Origin: Romboutsia hominis
GTDB taxonomy: Bacteria; Bacillota; Clostridia; Peptostreptococcales; Peptostreptococcaceae
Direction: 5' to 3'
DNA length: 64,000 bases
NCBI RefSeq assembly: GCF_900002575.1
Contig: NZ_LN650648.1
Span: forward strand, 1,713,565 to 1,777,564
The position numbers were made by a program, and so were the translations under genes. Below the pieces are notes generated by a model. It did not search any database and was not told the DNA's origin. It worked only from the letters and a program-made list of their open reading frames with translations. Below are positions 6,369 through 11,293 of the stretch, one piece after another. Numbering within the stretch: position 1 is the first letter of the stretch; the number at the start of each line of letters is the position of its first letter.

Positions 6369-8081
6369 TTATTTCTTATCGTTATCCACAACAACTTTAT
6401 TTTTTCCTGTATTTTTAGCTTTATACATATTTTCATCTGATTTTTTTAAGGTATTTTCATAATGTATATTTGAAAAAGCCACTCCTATACTTACAGTTGT
6501 TTTTATATCCTTGCTCCAACTTATACCTTCTACTGAAGACCTAATCATTTCAGCTAAAAGTAATACTTCTTCTTTTATTTTATAACAGGATATTATTACA
6601 AATTCTTCTCCACCATACCTACATAAATAAGTGTGTTCTTGCAATAATTTTTTTATGGTATTAGTTATAACTTTTAAAACTTCATCTCCAAATTGATGCC
6701 CATAAGTATCATTTATATATTTAAAATTATCTATATCTATCATTACTATAGAGAATTTTATATTTTTATCCAATAGCTCCTCATATTTACTATCAAAATA
6801 AGCTCTATTGTATGTATTTGTCAGTTTATCTTGTAATGTTAAATGTTTCATACTTATTAACCTATTTTTATTATACCTATGTATTACGACAAATATAATA
6901 CTTCCAAATAGTATTATTATAAATAGAAACTTTATCATATTATTTTCCTTCTCTAACTTGTACTCTTTACTAGCTTGTTCTATTATATAATATGAATAAT
7001 CTTTGTATTTATTGTCTTCAGATTCTTTTATTACCTCAAGTAACTTATCTGTATATAAATTCGCTTCATTATATTTTTTTTGTTCTTCTAATAATTTTAT
7101 TAATCTTGTTAAGGCATACCTTATGTCCTGTTCTCTATTTTTTTCATATTCATCTTCTTTAAGTACTTCTTTATATGTATATACAGCACTATCAATATCT
7201 CCAATAGCCTCATAATATTTACCCGTAGCAAGTTGATATATAGTTTTTCTATTTCCCACCATTAACTTTTCATTATTTAACAGTTCTTTAGATTTATCTA
7301 AATATATCTTTGCTTGTTTTGAATTATTTTCTGATAAATAAATTGAAGATTTTATAGTATATATCAATATATTTAAATCATAATATTCATTTACATCTAT
7401 ATAATTACTATATTTTTCTACCTCTTCTATGTATTTTTTTGCATTACTATACTCATTGTTTTTTAAATATATTTCAGCTATGTTTAAATTTCCATACACT
7501 TGTATAAATTTATTTTTATATTCATCATTAATTTTTATATCAAGTCCATCTTTTATACTCTTTATTCCGGTGCTTTCACCTTCTATCTCCGAAAACAATA
7601 CACCTAGATCTACTAAGCATTTAGCTTCATTAAATTTATCATTCATTTTTTTAGATAATATTAGCGTGTTTAATATATATCTAGATGCTTTTGCATAGTT
7701 TTGTTCTAGTAAATACGCACTTTGAAGTTTACTGGATACTATAAATTTAGAATTTATTGATAAATGCTTACTTTGTTCCATTGTAGTTAGTATGTTTATA
7801 ACTTCTTTTAATCCTCTTTCTGTATTTCTAATATAATCAGTCATTTGAATTATATATTCACATACTATGTTGTAATCTTTAGGCTTTATTTTTGAAAATT
7901 CATTTTTTAAGATATCTATTGCTTTATTATATTGTTTATCATATGTATTTTTTTTAATTTTACTTTCTATTTGCATAATCTCATTTTTTATATTTTGTTT
8001 ATGTGCCCCATATGATAATGATATACATGTAGCAATAGCTATGATTATATATATTATTTTTCTTATTTTTACTCCCCCCAA
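6369..8081 (-). CDS. Membrane-anchored TPR-GGDEF protein, putative diguanylate cyclase
   Basis: The order is an N-terminal signal or anchor segment (about residues 8-25), a long helical region of TPR-like repeats (about 40-370), a transmembrane helix (about 380-398, FLFIIILFGSIIFVVIH) and a C-terminal GGDEF domain. The active loop is RYGGEEFVI near residue 490, with the metal-binding IDIDNFKYIND before it. It is therefore likely an active cyclase making c-di-GMP, with the TPR part outside the membrane as sensor. No RxxD inhibitory site is obvious upstream of GGEEF. The start TTG 8081 follows AAAGGA; no ATG lies close by. It is a single gene. Confidence 0.92.
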   Translation of the reverse strand: MGGVKIRKIIYIIIAIATCISLSYGAHKQNIKNEIMQIESKIKKNTYDKQYNKAIDILKNEFSKIKPKDYNIVCEYIIQMTDYIRNTERGLKEVINILTTMEQSKHLSINSKFIVSSKLQSAYLLEQNYAKASRYILNTLILSKKMNDKFNEAKCLVDLGVLFSEIEGESTGIKSIKDGLDIKINDEYKNKFIQVYGNLNIAEIYLKNNEYSNAKKYIEEVEKYSNYIDVNEYYDLNILIYTIKSSIYLSENNSKQAKIYLDKSKELLNNEKLMVGNRKTIYQLATGKYYEAIGDIDSAVYTYKEVLKEDEYEKNREQDIRYALTRLIKLLEEQKKYNEANLYTDKLLEVIKESEDNKYKDYSYYIIEQASKEYKLEKENNMIKFLFIIILFGSIIFVVIHRYNKNRLISMKHLTLQDKLTNTYNRAYFDSKYEELLDKNIKFSIVMIDIDNFKYINDTYGHQFGDEVLKVITNTIKKLLQEHTYLCRYGGEEFVIISCYKIKEEVLLLAEMIRSSVEGISWSKDIKTTVSIGVAFSNIHYENTLKKSDENMYKAKNTGKNKVVVDNDKK

Positions 8082-8223
8082 AATATATCCTTTCTTTTTT
8101 GTATAGATATTCCTAAACTTCTTACAGTTTATATTTTATCATATTTTTAAATTTTGTCATATTTTACATTTTTATTTAATTATTCTTTATATATCAAACT
8201 ATCTTCATAGTTACTTTTATAAT

Positions 8224-8254
8224 AAAAAACTCCCTATTTCTAGGGAGTTTTTGT
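8224..8254 (-). terminator. Terminator after the MutS2-like gene
   Basis: The inverted repeat aaaaaactcccta / tagggagttttt overlaps the end of the MutS2-like gene and is followed by A/T runs on both strands. Confidence 0.85.
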
Positions 8255-10155
8255 TATAACCTATTATTTTTTATATCTTTTTGTATCTTCTTTAAAGCTT
8301 TTTTAGAGCCTCTTTTTATATCTTTCTCTAATTTTCTTTCCTTGTAACTTACAAATAAAGAATTTAAATCATAATCTCTAGGGTATAAATCAATAGCTTT
8401 TAGATTTAAGCTAATTCTTTTTATATTTACATCTATTATCTCTTCATTATACAATACCTTGACGTTGTTAAACTTATCTACACCTTCATATACTATAGCA
8501 AATTCATCTTCATCTAGTAATTTTACTCTATCTCCCATTTCATAATTAGGTATACCTTTTAATACTTCTAATGCTTCTTCTGTTTTATTAATTTTATTTC
8601 TATCTACTAAGTCAAGGTTGTAATTCTTACTTTCTATATATCTTTTCGCTCTACTTAGTACTTTATTTCTTATACCCATTTTCTTTGATATAAATAAAGC
8701 ATTACTATCCTCTGATTTACCTATAGTAAGTTTATATAATGGTTCTAATGTATTTTTATCAAACATCATTCCTGCATTTTCAAACTCTGGATGCATTGTT
8801 GCAAAATGTTTAATCTCTGCATAATGAGTTGATGCTACAATTATAGATCCCATTTTATATAACTCTTCAAGTATTGATATTGCAAGACCCGCACCTTCAT
8901 TAGGCTCAGTTCCTGACCCAATTTCATCAAATAATACTAATGTTGACTTATTTGACGCATTTATAATGTTTGCTATATTTTGTATGTGAGATGAAAATGT
9001 ACTTAAAGAATTCTCTATGCTTTGATTATCTCCTATATCAACAAATATCTTCTCAAATACGCTTATTTCAGTATTTTTATCTGCACATATATCAAATCCA
9101 CATTGAGTCATAAGAGTTAAAATTCCAACTGTTTTTAAAGCTACAGTTTTCCCTCCTGCATTAGGTCCTGTTATAACTAAACTTCTATAATCCTTACCTA
9201 TTACAAAATTAAGAGGAACCACATCACCTTTAAGTAGTGGATGTTTTCCATTTATTATATTTATATATCCATAGTTATTTAGTTTAGGTGTTATTCCTTT
9301 TATAGAATCGCTATATTTAGCTTTTGCAAATACCATATCATATTCTGCAATTATTTCTATATTTATTTTTATATTTTGTATTTTTTCATAAATAAGGTCT
9401 GTTAAATAAGAAAGTACCTTGTATTCTTCTATAGATTCTTCTGATTTTAAAGTTATAAGCTCTATACTAAATTTTGAGACACTATTAGGTTCTACAAAAA
9501 CTGTATTTCCTTTTGATGATGTATCTAATACTACACCATCTACCTCATTTTTATATGATGCTTTAATAGGTATTACATACCTTTCATCTCTTTTACTTAT
9601 TATAAATTCTTGTATATATTTTTTGTTTCCTGATGCTGTTAAAAACTTGTTTAATCTTTCTCTTATTTTTCCTTCAGCAACTTCAATATTTCTTCTAATT
9701 TTTTTTAATTCTTTACTAGCATTAGAATCTACTTTATTTCCTTTTATACAATACTTAATTTCTTCCTCTATACTTTTACACTCTGTTATATTAAGTGCAT
9801 AAGAACTTAATGCAGGGGAATAAAATTCTTTATCTATCATAAAAGATTTTATCTTTTTACATCCTCTTAAAAAATCTTCAATACGTATAAGTTCTGTAGG
9901 CTCTAGTATCATTCCTTTTTCTACTTTTTCTATAATCGGCATTATATTAAAAAGTCCTTCTAAAGGTATATGATTGCTATTTTCTATTATTTTTCTAGCT
10001 TCATTATTTTCATTTAACCTTCTTTTAACTACTTTATAGCTACTACTTGGCATTAATTTATCTATAAGTTCTTTTCCAAGTGAGCTTACGCAATATATTT
10101 TAACTAACTCTTTAACTTCGTTTAATTGTAATTTTTCATATGTTTGTGTGTTCAT
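8254..10155 (-). CDS. MutS2-like ATPase without Smr domain
   Basis: The protein has a MutS core-lever region (about 1-300), then an ABC-type ATPase with Walker A GPNAGGKTVALKT near residue 330 and Walker B STLVLFDEIGSGTEP near 405. A KOW/SH3-like segment (GDRVKLLDEDEFAIVYE) follows near 537. Typical MutS2 is about 780 residues and ends in an Smr nuclease domain; this one stops at 633 in a Lys-rich tail (KKALKKIQKDIKNN) with no Smr. MutS2 proteins act on recombination intermediates or, as shown in Bacillus, on collided ribosomes. The missing nuclease suggests a remodelling rather than cutting role, which is inference. ATG 10155 has AAGGAG 6 bases upstream, inside the leader structure described separately. 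Confidence 0.88.
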   Translation of the reverse strand: MNTQTYEKLQLNEVKELVKIYCVSSLGKELIDKLMPSSSYKVVKRRLNENNEARKIIENSNHIPLEGLFNIMPIIEKVEKGMILEPTELIRIEDFLRGCKKIKSFMIDKEFYSPALSSYALNITECKSIEEEIKYCIKGNKVDSNASKELKKIRRNIEVAEGKIRERLNKFLTASGNKKYIQEFIISKRDERYVIPIKASYKNEVDGVVLDTSSKGNTVFVEPNSVSKFSIELITLKSEESIEEYKVLSYLTDLIYEKIQNIKINIEIIAEYDMVFAKAKYSDSIKGITPKLNNYGYINIINGKHPLLKGDVVPLNFVIGKDYRSLVITGPNAGGKTVALKTVGILTLMTQCGFDICADKNTEISVFEKIFVDIGDNQSIENSLSTFSSHIQNIANIINASNKSTLVLFDEIGSGTEPNEGAGLAISILEELYKMGSIIVASTHYAEIKHFATMHPEFENAGMMFDKNTLEPLYKLTIGKSEDSNALFISKKMGIRNKVLSRAKRYIESKNYNLDLVDRNKINKTEEALEVLKGIPNYEMGDRVKLLDEDEFAIVYEGVDKFNNVKVLYNEEIIDVNIKRISLNLKAIDLYPRDYDLNSLFVSYKERKLEKDIKRGSKKALKKIQKDIKNNRL

Positions 10156-10161
10156 TTTTAT

Positions 10162-10244
10162 CTCCTTTATTTATCAGCTTTTATTCTTAAAAGGCTTCTT
10201 GATAAATAAGGACTTTTATTATTGCTCCTTATTTATCAAGAAGC
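10162..10244 (-). promoter_or_regulatory. Leader hairpin that can alternatively pair with the MutS2-like gene's ribosome binding site
   Basis: On the minus-strand RNA, a 5' arm (10244-10226) and a 3' arm (10212-10194) form a perfect 19-bp hairpin with a 13-base loop. The segment carrying the Shine-Dalgarno of the next gene (10175-10162, GATAAATAAAGGAG) almost repeats the end of the 5' arm (GATAAATAAGGAG). The 3' arm can therefore pair with either one, with a single bulge in the second case. The 5' arm holds the last codons and stop of a short leader ORF. This is the layout of a translational switch. It is inference from sequence only. Confidence 0.6.
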
Positions 10245-10279
10245 TCACACACACTCTCAAAATATTTATTTTTTTTCAA
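10229..10279 (-). CDS. Putative 16-residue leader peptide upstream of the MutS2-like gene
   Basis: TTG 10279 follows GGAGAGG at 5 bases and encodes MKKNKYFESVCELLDK, with a TAA stop inside the 5' arm of the leader hairpin. A consensus-like promoter starts about 20 bases upstream, so the peptide would be the first thing translated from this RNA. A ribosome ending here would cover the 5' arm and free the 3' arm to pair with the downstream ribosome binding site. The peptide itself matches nothing I know. Confidence 0.5.
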   Translation of the reverse strand: MKKNKYFESVCELLDK

Positions 10280-10307
10280 AAAATCCTCTCCTTCCTTAAT
10301 ACATTTT

Positions 10308-10336
10308 ATTATCTCATATAAATAAGGTACTTTCAA
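10308..10336 (-). promoter_or_regulatory. SigA-type promoter of the MutS2-like leader transcript
   Basis: On the minus strand, -35 TTGAAA (10336-10331), a spacer of exactly 17 bases, and -10 GATAAT (10313-10308). Transcription would begin near 10301, about 145 bases before the MutS2-like start codon. Confidence 0.65.
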
Positions 10337-10407
10337 TATATCATAATCATTTATAATGTTTTTATATTAAAACATTATTTAATTAAATCAAATACTATTT
10401 TATTAAT

Positions 10408-10446
10408 AAAAAAGTACTGGAAATTTTTAATTCCCAGTACTTTTGT
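10408..10446 (-). terminator. Terminator after the TIGR02206-type membrane protein gene
   Basis: The inverted repeat aaaagtactgg / ccagtactttt is flanked by A and T runs. It lies just after the membrane protein stop and upstream of the MutS2 leader promoter. Confidence 0.85.
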
Positions 10447-10455
10447 TTAAAATAT

Positions 10456-11181
10456 TTATGCAACCTCATAAAATTCTTCTACAGAGCTATCTTCTTTTTT
10501 ATTTATAATTATATATTCTATACTTAAAACTATATTAAAAATCATCATAACTATAAATCCATATAAAAATGGGTTTAAATTATTGCCTATACCAATAGGT
10601 GATGATTTCATATATGCATAGTTAGCATTTATCGTTCTATCAACAAAAAATATTACTATATGATATAAATTTGTTGTAATAAGTATTTTCTTAAAATCAT
10701 CTTTACTCATACCTATTTTCTTTACAAATAGTAAATAAACAGACCCCCAAAGTAATAGTATATGACCTATAAAATATGAGAATTGAGTTATATGAGGGAA
10801 TGAAAAAGGATCTAGCCCTAAAAATATTAATGCTGATATTGAACCAAACATTCCCCAATAAGATCCCATTTTGCAAATGAAATCTTTCTTAAAAATCAAT
10901 CCTATTGCCAACATAAGTATTGCTATCCTACAATGAAATAATGGTAGACCTTCTCTGATAAAATTATAGTTTCCAACAAAGTACCAAAGATATAATGTTA
11001 ATTGTTGAACTAATAATATACTACCAGTAAAAACTTCAAATAATCTACTTTCCTTTTTTGATTTTATAATAAGTAAACTACCAAAAAAAGCTATCAATAA
11101 TAATATTATGTGTATAATTCCAAAGTTAACAAAATTATTTTGTTCTGTAGATGTCCTAAAAAAATAATAAAATTTACCCAT
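10456..11181 (-). CDS. TIGR02206 (YwaF)-family membrane protein
   Basis: The 241-residue protein has about seven hydrophobic segments and the family's conserved stretch EGLPLFHCRIAI (residues about 78-89), followed by FGSISALIFLG. These fit the YwaF/TIGR02206 group of integral membrane proteins, whose function is not known. I chose ATG 11181 (MGKFYYFF) because AAGGAG lies 6 bases upstream; the in-frame TTG at 11214 has no site. It lies on the same strand as the 4-hydroxybutyrate dehydrogenase, about 110 bases downstream, so read-through is possible. Confidence 0.85.
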   Translation of the reverse strand: MGKFYYFFRTSTEQNNFVNFGIIHIILLLIAFFGSLLIIKSKKESRLFEVFTGSILLVQQLTLYLWYFVGNYNFIREGLPLFHCRIAILMLAIGLIFKKDFICKMGSYWGMFGSISALIFLGLDPFSFPHITQFSYFIGHILLLWGSVYLLFVKKIGMSKDDFKKILITTNLYHIVIFFVDRTINANYAYMKSSPIGIGNNLNPFLYGFIVMMIFNIVLSIEYIIINKKEDSSVEEFYEVA

Positions 11182-11293
11182 GTATGTCTCCTTAATTTGA
11201 TTGTATACCTTCAATATTATAAATTGCTATAAGCTTTTTTGCAAATATTAAATTAATCCAATTATTTTTAGGAGACTTTTAATTATATTTTGA

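Follow-up and report, generated by a model that had tools for sequence, protein, structure and literature searches.

A conserved leader peptide and alternative RNA pairings upstream of an Smr-less MutS2-like ATPase gene in Romboutsia hominis and its relatives: a probable stall-responsive translational attenuator

In Romboutsia hominis, the gene of a MutS2-like ATPase without an Smr domain is preceded by a short leader ORF and by RNA arms whose pairings exclude one another, the Shine-Dalgarno (SD) sequence of the gene being hidden in one of them. It is likely, with a probability of about 0.6, that this region is a leader-peptide translational attenuator which controls the ATPase and responds to ribosome stalling or to drugs. 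The coevolution of the arms, the conservation of the element, the near-balanced folds and the position dependence in the folding model are established, and translational attenuation is the simplest account because it accommodates the leader, the arms, their balance and the position dependence together. Judged from sequence, the leader-hairpin element is real, conserved and functional-looking, as 43 leaders of one type and the coevolving arms place it beyond chance. The window refers here to the whole stretch of 64,000 nucleotides that was analysed, and the features of interest are on its minus strand (Table 1).

Table 1. Features of the leader region and the MutS2-like gene, in positions of the window.
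Feature	Position	Strand	Description
Promoter	10308..10336	-	-35 TTGAAA 10336-10331, 17-nt spacer, -10 GATAAT 10313-10308; 10/12 matches
Leader SD	10288..10293	-	AAGGAG; direct reading
Leader ORF	10229..10279	-	TTG start 10279, 16 codons, LKKNKYFESVCELLDK, stop TAA 10231-10229
Ser-Val codons	10250..10255	-	AGT GTG (codons -8/-7); conserved motif directly 5' of arm 1
Arm 1	10237..10244	-	GCTTCTTG; local hairpin with arm 2, -7.9 kcal/mol in the window
Arm 2	10224..10231	-	TAAGGAGC; leader stop plus SD-like AAGGAG
A	10226..10244	-	5' arm of the perfect 19-bp hairpin; covers arms 1 and 2
A' (arm 3)	10194..10212	-	3' arm; partner is A or the SD arm
B (arm 4)	10162..10175	-	GATAAATAAAGGAG; contains the SD of the gene, 10167-10162
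MutS2-like ATPase gene	8254..10155	-	633 aa; MutS core, small C-terminal beta-barrel and tail, without Smr

An earlier note on this DNA had described a leader ORF, a 19-bp hairpin and an SD arm nearly repeating the 5' arm of the hairpin, and all of these can be read directly. The hairpin is perfect (10244-10226 / 10212-10194, with a loop of 13 nt), and the SD arm GATAAATAAAGGAG equals GATAAATAAGGAG of the hairpin 5' arm plus one extra A; the gene starts with the ATG at 10155. The leader RNA of the window folds at -38.1 kcal/mol compared to -19.9 in shuffles (z = -5.53), and 0/200 shuffles were as stable. The promoter of the same note is present with its spacing, but such sites are no commoner than in shuffles (8 found, shuffle mean 8.1), and thus the promoter alone is no evidence. 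A TTGA...AAATAAT-like sequence was seen by eye before the leaders of many relatives, and a purine-rich SD-like stretch, also by eye, 5' of the leader start in the 22 representatives. No intrinsic terminator was found between leader and gene when terminator-like sites were scanned over 9800-10700, the sole site (10444-10410) being 5' of the promoter, where it probably ends the upstream gene. This upstream gene (10456-11214) codes for a TMEM164-related membrane protein (TIGR02206). On the downstream side, 6369-8081 codes for a GGDEF (diguanylate cyclase) protein, and no terminator-like site between it and the mutS2-like gene was found in 7900-8500. Searching 9500-11000 against Rfam 15 gave nothing at gathering score, with weak sub-threshold matches to miRNA models only.

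Orthologues were searched in 71 genomes of the family (Peptostreptococcaceae), and the leader was found in 36 of the 37 family loci examined in which the orthologue was at least about 66% identical; in the exception (L039) the contig ends 58 bases 5' of the gene and only A' and B are visible. The 37 loci include one split gene (G012) and one broken gene (G058, L045), and the leader before the latter looks intact. In G048 (L044) the mutS2-like gene is broken and the leader region masked. The masked letters kept this locus out of the long-type set, and L039 was left out due to its contig end and G068 and G069 because they begin at contig edges. Seven leaders of other families (L099, L115-L120) bring the long type to 43. 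Within the family, G020 (L041) has a 48% orthologue with a terminator-type leader, counted with the short type, and no leader was found for the partial orthologue of G035 (L042; 46%). The orthologue loci come from Clostridioides difficile, Romboutsia, Terrisporobacter, Tepidibacter, Intestinibacter, Metaclostridioides, Marinisporobacter and others. The pattern CTTCTTNRTAAATAAGGAG, with at most one mismatch, gave 37 matches in 31 of the 71 family genomes, every one of them at a mutS2-like locus, compared to 8 matches in 8 genomes for the reversed pattern; as far as sequence goes, the leader element is dedicated to the MutS2-like gene. In the Romboutsia/Intestinibacter-type group the element lies 5' of a small CD3324-family gene directly preceding the mutS2-like gene, and a gene of this family in this position, between the two, would be under the same switch. 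It was seen in L009-L012, L021, L030, L031, L038, L051, L068, L104 and L115-L120 (one copy, from L011, was tested against NF040785 and the remaining copies were assigned by eye).

The leaders are 10-19 codons long (43 leaders called by script, some starts being ambiguous). At codons -8 to -6, numbered back from the stop, they have mostly S/L/T/V, G/V/A and V/I/G, a V or I occurring at least once near -7/-6, and this motif is usually followed by x, L, L, N/D, K and the stop, which is TAA in 42/43. The codon CTT is found at -3 in all 43 leaders and also at -4 (CTT CTT) in 37, the codon at -4 being AAA, CGG or CGA in the other six. In eight genes of the window, leucine is coded by TTA in 63%, CTT in 19%, CTG in 1% and CTC in 0%, and TCC makes up 4/194 of the Ser codons. 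Rare codons (GAG, CTG, CTC, TCC, ACC) are kept at -9/-8, just 5' of the Val motif, in many long-type loci, and they may act by slowing translation or by pairing with some other element. In L015 the A-run is one base shorter, so that the usual ATG is out of frame and a GTG remains as the start; the shortening may be real or a sequencing error. The exact IAVV motif of the ermA class is absent, the leaders carrying SVC, TVV, SGV, SAV, LVV and similar. The family leader of L036, MSTVGGLLIK, looks intermediate.

Coevolution of the arms was assessed from duplex energies of native and permuted arm partners (10000 permutations), in 39 distinct triples and in 22 representatives, the latter reducing the kinship among the rows only partly. 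It had been suggested that the 3' arm can pair with either the 5' arm or the SD, and both pairings were better in the native than in the swapped combinations: A:A' had a mean of -23.5 compared to -20.2 permuted, and A':B -14.1 compared to -12.2, in the triples, and the corresponding values in the representatives were -23.55 and -19.36, and -14.10 and -11.73. The native mean was reached by 0/10000 permutations in all four tests. The covarying arms include AACAAATAAGG with CCTTATTTGTT in L012, L021 and L031, and AATAACTAAGG with CCTTAGTTATT in L030 and L045, in which the SD arm is altered to ATAGCAAAGG. A fourth arm within the leader end, overlooked in the earlier note as were the terminator-type leaders of distant relatives, is seen in the self-folding of the leader end (1:2) in 22/22 representatives, mostly as CTTCTT with AAGGAG. 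Also this pairing was better native than permuted (-8.75 and -7.28; 0/10000), and the signal was weaker (10/10000) when the two most divergent rows, L099 and L120, were removed; in these two both sides of 1:2 are altered and the hairpin is kept. The pairing of arm 1 with arm 2 would account for the retention of CTT at -4 in leaders whose A' can reach only the second CTT. Added together, 1:2 and 3:4 come to about -22.9, close to the A:A' energy. In constrained folding of the 22 leaders, with closed meaning the SD paired in any way, the open fold minus the closed fold was +0.5 kcal/mol on average (sd 3.0; 13/22 within 3), and without a ribosome 11 of the 22 favoured the open and 11 the closed fold.

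The effect of ribosome position was modelled by equilibrium folding with a fixed footprint masked from -14 to +15 around the P-site, and the probability of an unpaired gene SD was calculated for 42 unique RNAs and for 168 controls in which the stretch between the leader stop and the SD was shuffled. The mean SD accessibility of the 42 RNAs was 0.55 without a ribosome, 0.61, 0.68, 0.71, 0.54 and 0.41 with the ribosome at codons -9, -8, -7, -6 and -5, respectively, and 0.19-0.21 at codons -4 to -1, whereas the profile of the shuffled controls was flat (0.44-0.52). Codon -7 exceeded the last codon by more than 0.3 in 29/42 RNAs compared to 9/168 controls, and the most open position was -7 in 18 RNAs, -12 in 11, -11 to -9 in 12 and -1 in one. 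Within this folding model, the position dependence supports the earlier idea of a ribosome-responsive switch on the MutS2-like gene.

The RNAs can be split into two subtypes by A'. In the window's subtype (8/42 RNAs: L006, L007, L016, L027-L029, L033 and L036, the window's own RNA included) A' pairs with both CTT codons; here the free RNA is predicted open (mean 0.74), accessibility is still 0.67-0.75 when the start or -12/-11 is occupied by a ribosome, and the RNA is closed on average from P-site -9 on (0.38 or less), with 0.29 at the last codon. The window's own RNA has 0.75 when free and would thus not be off by default; it stays at 0.59-0.75 with the P-site at -12 to -8 (0.70 at -8), drops to 0.45 at -7 and is about 0.30 after that, the last codon included. 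The main subtype (34/42 RNAs) is near balance when free (mean 0.51, below 0.35 in 16), its SD is opened by a ribosome at -9, -8 or -7 (means 0.67, 0.76 and 0.80; median 0.93 at -7) and closed at codons -4 to -1 (means 0.17-0.19; median 0.16 at the last codons). The -7 effect above 0.3 is thus found in 29/34 RNAs of the main subtype and 0/8 of the window's; the 13/42 RNAs without it are all eight of the window's subtype and five of the main one (L034, L037, L040, L099, L120). The initial idea that Val-motif stalling switches the gene on in every species was dropped for the window's subtype after the split. In the model, both subtypes are closed by a ribosome at the leader end and not by one that is short of the end, the positions concerned being different in the two subtypes.

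According to the earlier note, an untranslated leader would leave the gene open and a ribosome on the leader would shut it. The open untranslated state is found in the window's subtype but not in the other 34 RNAs, the free state of which is not generally open owing to the additional self-folding of the leader end. The shutting is seen with a ribosome on the last codon in the window's subtype, but an early ribosome keeps the SD of the window open and a ribosome at -7 opens the main subtype. As an early ribosome leaves the gene open and a late one closes it, codon position decides, not the mere presence of a ribosome. Thus, the anatomy given in the earlier note was right, and its logic is partly supported for the window's subtype and does not hold for most relatives. 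The same note had named relatives without the leader, or with uncompensated changes in the pairing of A' and SD, as evidence against a switch; the leader was present in all but one of the 37 family loci, and the pairings coevolve.

In the attenuator that we propose, arm 1 would be CTTCTT (codons -4/-3), arm 2 the AAGGAG at or after the leader stop, arm 3 A' and arm 4 the SD arm. A ribosome at the last leader codons would cover arms 1 and 2, arm 3 would then hide the SD, and the gene would be closed, while an end that is not reached by ribosomes would hold arm 3 and leave the SD free. In the main subtype arms 1 and 2 would also pair, which puts the untranslated RNA near balance, and ribosomes stalling close to the Val motif (-9 to -7) would cover arm 1, let arm 2 take arm 3 and open the SD in an erm-like manner. 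The window's subtype has the full A:A' hairpin of the 19-bp type, which would make the untranslated RNA open, and in the window a stall would have to be early (P-site -8 or before) to keep the SD open. In this way stalling, most likely by ribosome-targeting antibiotics, would turn on a probable ribosome splitter or rescuer; the ribosome stall, the inducer and the activity of the protein are all three what we infer in this proposal.

The 633-aa protein matches TIGR01069 (MutS2) with 592.5 bits against a cut-off of 400, in residues 3-517 only, and it also matches PF00488 (MutS domain V), indicating that the MutS core with its ABC ATPase is present. No match to the Smr domain was obtained in any of the 14 aligned members, and the protein ends in a different tail. 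A small beta-barrel is predicted at residues 543-585 (block pLDDT 81-85), similar to a KOW domain in its location and size, a weak KOW-type match being found in 1/14 members, and in the consensus the barrel is followed by a conserved tail, LYPEGYDL...RKL..DIERGSKKALKKIQKEI. The structure model built from 44 homologues has a mean pLDDT of 84.7 (an earlier model from 14 close sequences was poor, with 42.9) and superimposes on B. subtilis MutS2 on the collided disome (7qv3) with Z 44.6 and rmsd 2.7 over 502 residues, the identity to a 7qv3 chain being 38%. It also matches the MutS2 cores of Thermotoga and Thermus; the fold comparison covers in effect residues 1-513. The same genome carries a longer MutS2 (L002), the DLRG...HG.GTG ending of which we take by eye to be Smr, and the Smr-less MutS2-like protein is therefore an additional paralogue. 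In the tree a branch with full support separates off the canonical MutS2 proteins; the rooting of the tree is unreliable due to long outgroups, and the Smr-less group as a clade cannot be read from it. By analogy, the Smr-less MutS2-like protein probably splits or rescues stalled ribosomes.

Smr-less MutS2-like proteins of 40-66% identity are also found in Clostridia, Bacillaceae, Listeria and Enterococcus. The scan covered named genomes and 297 genomes of the order, and of 41 non-family genomes with a match 21 were viewed first and 20 later, three of the 20 being canonical MutS2. In the first set, 51/51 upstream regions have an SD-preceded ORF of 3-9 codons with the form M-S/I-x(0-2)-V (e.g., MSAVGSK, MSVVVLN, MSGVVSK, MSVVQ), compared to 1/51 reverse complements and 4/37 downstream stretches; the pattern was written after viewing the 51 sequences, and it is these controls that carry the weight. 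Among 17 further Smr-less loci the M-S/I-x-V pattern was found in only 7 (0/17 reversed), and eight had other ORFs such as MLEVVLNK, MLDRVLNK, MYAGVLI and MNGVVLN. Either this pattern or a second one (V-L-N/I/L, optional K, at the end), set after viewing the 17 loci, occurs in 15/17 of them, in 0/17 reversed and in 0/3 of the canonical MutS2 genes. Many of the short leaders have no Leu. The L-N-K endings of distant leaders recall the L-L-N/D-K of the window family, and the likeness of the peptides, extending over a few residues, is suggestive of common descent. In L078 and L080 (Clostridium sartagoforme and C. nigeriense) the leader has shrunk to Met-Ser-Val-stop, and the RNA arms are seemingly kept (by eye). 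Left out of the short-type set were L113 and L114 (31% identity), which have no such leader, L122 (the sequence of L112) and L125, in which none was found in the 209 bases up to the contig edge.

The RNA around the distant leaders is of another type, with a terminator-like hairpin between leader and gene in 48/51 short-leader relatives (a count made without a shuffle control), and a leader end with a complementary A' was seen by eye in many of the distant loci. C. aestuarii (L054) has a terminator-type leader though its protein groups with long-type species in the tree. Rfam gave no match at the leader in ten terminator-type loci, just a lysine riboswitch elsewhere in L108. When 28 terminator-type RNAs were modelled, L041, L098, L124 and L133 were near zero in all states, at least partly as an artefact of cutting, and are uninformative; in the other 24, masking a ribosome on the leader left the terminator pairing within about 0.05 in 22, with changes of up to about 0.14 in L127 and L129. 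The modelling of the terminator-type relatives thus does not show removal of the terminator by a stalled ribosome. In many loci of Bacilli (L073-L110) two features were seen by eye, an inner hairpin that is conserved and has a 3' part like TTTATTTGTTGT and, further on before the SD, a copy of GTAGGTATCTTCAT. It seems that the terminator-type leaders of Bacilli contain further structured RNA.

The same RNA could also be read as a switch of three arms, in which A:A' leaves the SD open as long as the leader is untranslated and any leader ribosome releases A' and closes the gene; a general loss of leader translation would then be the signal, not a codon-specific stall. No other single pairing is as strong as A:A' (mean -23.5), and the window's subtype behaves in this manner, being open when free and closed on average from -9. 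However, the closed fold is preferred by 11 of the 22 representatives without a ribosome, the main subtype is opened by ribosomes at -9 to -7 (means 0.67-0.80 in 34/42 RNAs), and both the CTT at -4, where A' cannot pair, and the coevolving 1:2 hairpin would be left unexplained, and we regard this reading as unlikely. Similarly doubtful, in our opinion, is that the attenuator works as proposed with a signal made by the cell itself (nascent peptide, slow decoding or ribosome collision) instead of a drug. The rare codons directly before the Val motif in many leaders and the action of MutS2 on collided ribosomes (PMC10897456) point in this direction, whereas the close precedents for such leaders are drug-responsive.

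The conservation of CTT at -3 in every leader and of CTT CTT in most of them, despite TTA being the usual Leu codon, could indicate leucine starvation as the signal, with the two CTT codons sensing charged Leu-tRNA. The CTT codons are, however, arm 1 of a coevolving hairpin and -4 varies to AAA, CGG or CGA, a ribosome awaiting Leu at -4/-3 (P-site -5/-4) gives an accessibility of 0.41 and 0.20, Leu is absent from many of the short leaders in distant relatives, and the target is not a Leu gene, all of which makes a leucine attenuator highly improbable. A 19-bp hairpin near the 5' end can stabilise mRNA, and the hairpins might merely protect or stabilise the message or bind a protein, the leader ORF being incidental. 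This is improbable considering that every leader, whatever its length of 10-19 codons, enters the same end in frame (in L015 with another start), that the SD arm coevolves with A' and that the leader is kept in distant relatives with other RNA around it.

The stall-responsive attenuator can be placed in a broader reading, which is tentative and to which we give somewhat less than even odds. The Smr-less MutS2-like proteins of Bacillota may be an unrecognised stress-inducible class of ribosome-splitting proteins, perhaps antibiotic-tolerance factors, that are leader-controlled and in which the RNA logic has been rewired at least twice. In this broader reading a leader centred on a short Val core (M-S-x-V, V-L-N-K, V-x-L-L-N-K) would report stalled ribosomes, and the rewired logic would consist of the terminator type and the SD-hiding type with its two subtypes. 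If this is true, a ribosome-rescue gene is turned on by the very event that its product cures, and a family of rescue ATPases in Bacillota of gut and soil, among them C. difficile, answers ribosome stalling via a conserved leader, pointing to a further route by which such bacteria respond to ribosome-targeting drugs. One kind of leader peptide would then serve different RNA switches, and ribosome stalling in clostridia would have a ready-made reporter. The purpose of the Smr-less MutS2 proteins also becomes directly testable.

In the erm leaders, four arms form exclusive pairings and the SD is hidden until a ribosome stalls in the leader. The element described here has in common with the erm type (ermA/ermB/ermC) a short leader, four arms, hiding of the SD and a Val-containing motif. 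It differs from erm in its target, a MutS2-like ATPase, in having no exact IAVV, the motif given for the ermA leader (PMC12698558), in an arm 2 that is SD-like and lies across the leader stop, and in the untranslated RNA of the window's subtype being predicted open. Relative to known attenuators, the target gene and the arm layout are new, and no report of a leader of such kind on a MutS2-like gene was found among the papers listed in searches of the open-access literature.

Several leader-controlled genes offer close parallels. In cplR of C. difficile, a uORF of three codons (MRI), an SD-hiding hairpin and a terminator precede a drug-induced ribosome factor (PMC10201436), while the window has a 16-codon leader, no terminator and another gene family. 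The 14-codon leader ORF of Listeria hflXr (lmo0762) controls a ribosome-splitting factor (PMC6310831), in that case by transcription attenuation, with an RLR motif and an HflX-like protein, unlike in the window. In B. subtilis vmlR, uORF stalling acts on a terminator and an SD-hiding hairpin (PMC9226507), and this leader resembles the terminator-type relatives, differing by its ABCF target and another uORF. The translational uORF toiL of E. coli topAI senses several ribosome drugs via different stall positions (PMC12121999), although its target is a toxin-antitoxin system and a Rho-dependent second step follows, unlike in the window. Canonical B. subtilis MutS2, which shares the MutS core and the ATPase with the window protein and has the Smr domain that the latter is missing, is described to split collided ribosomes (PMC10897456), its loss leading to sensitivity to chloramphenicol, tetracycline and erythromycin. 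A MutS2-like target is in keeping with the set formed by cplR, vmlR, hflXr and topAI.
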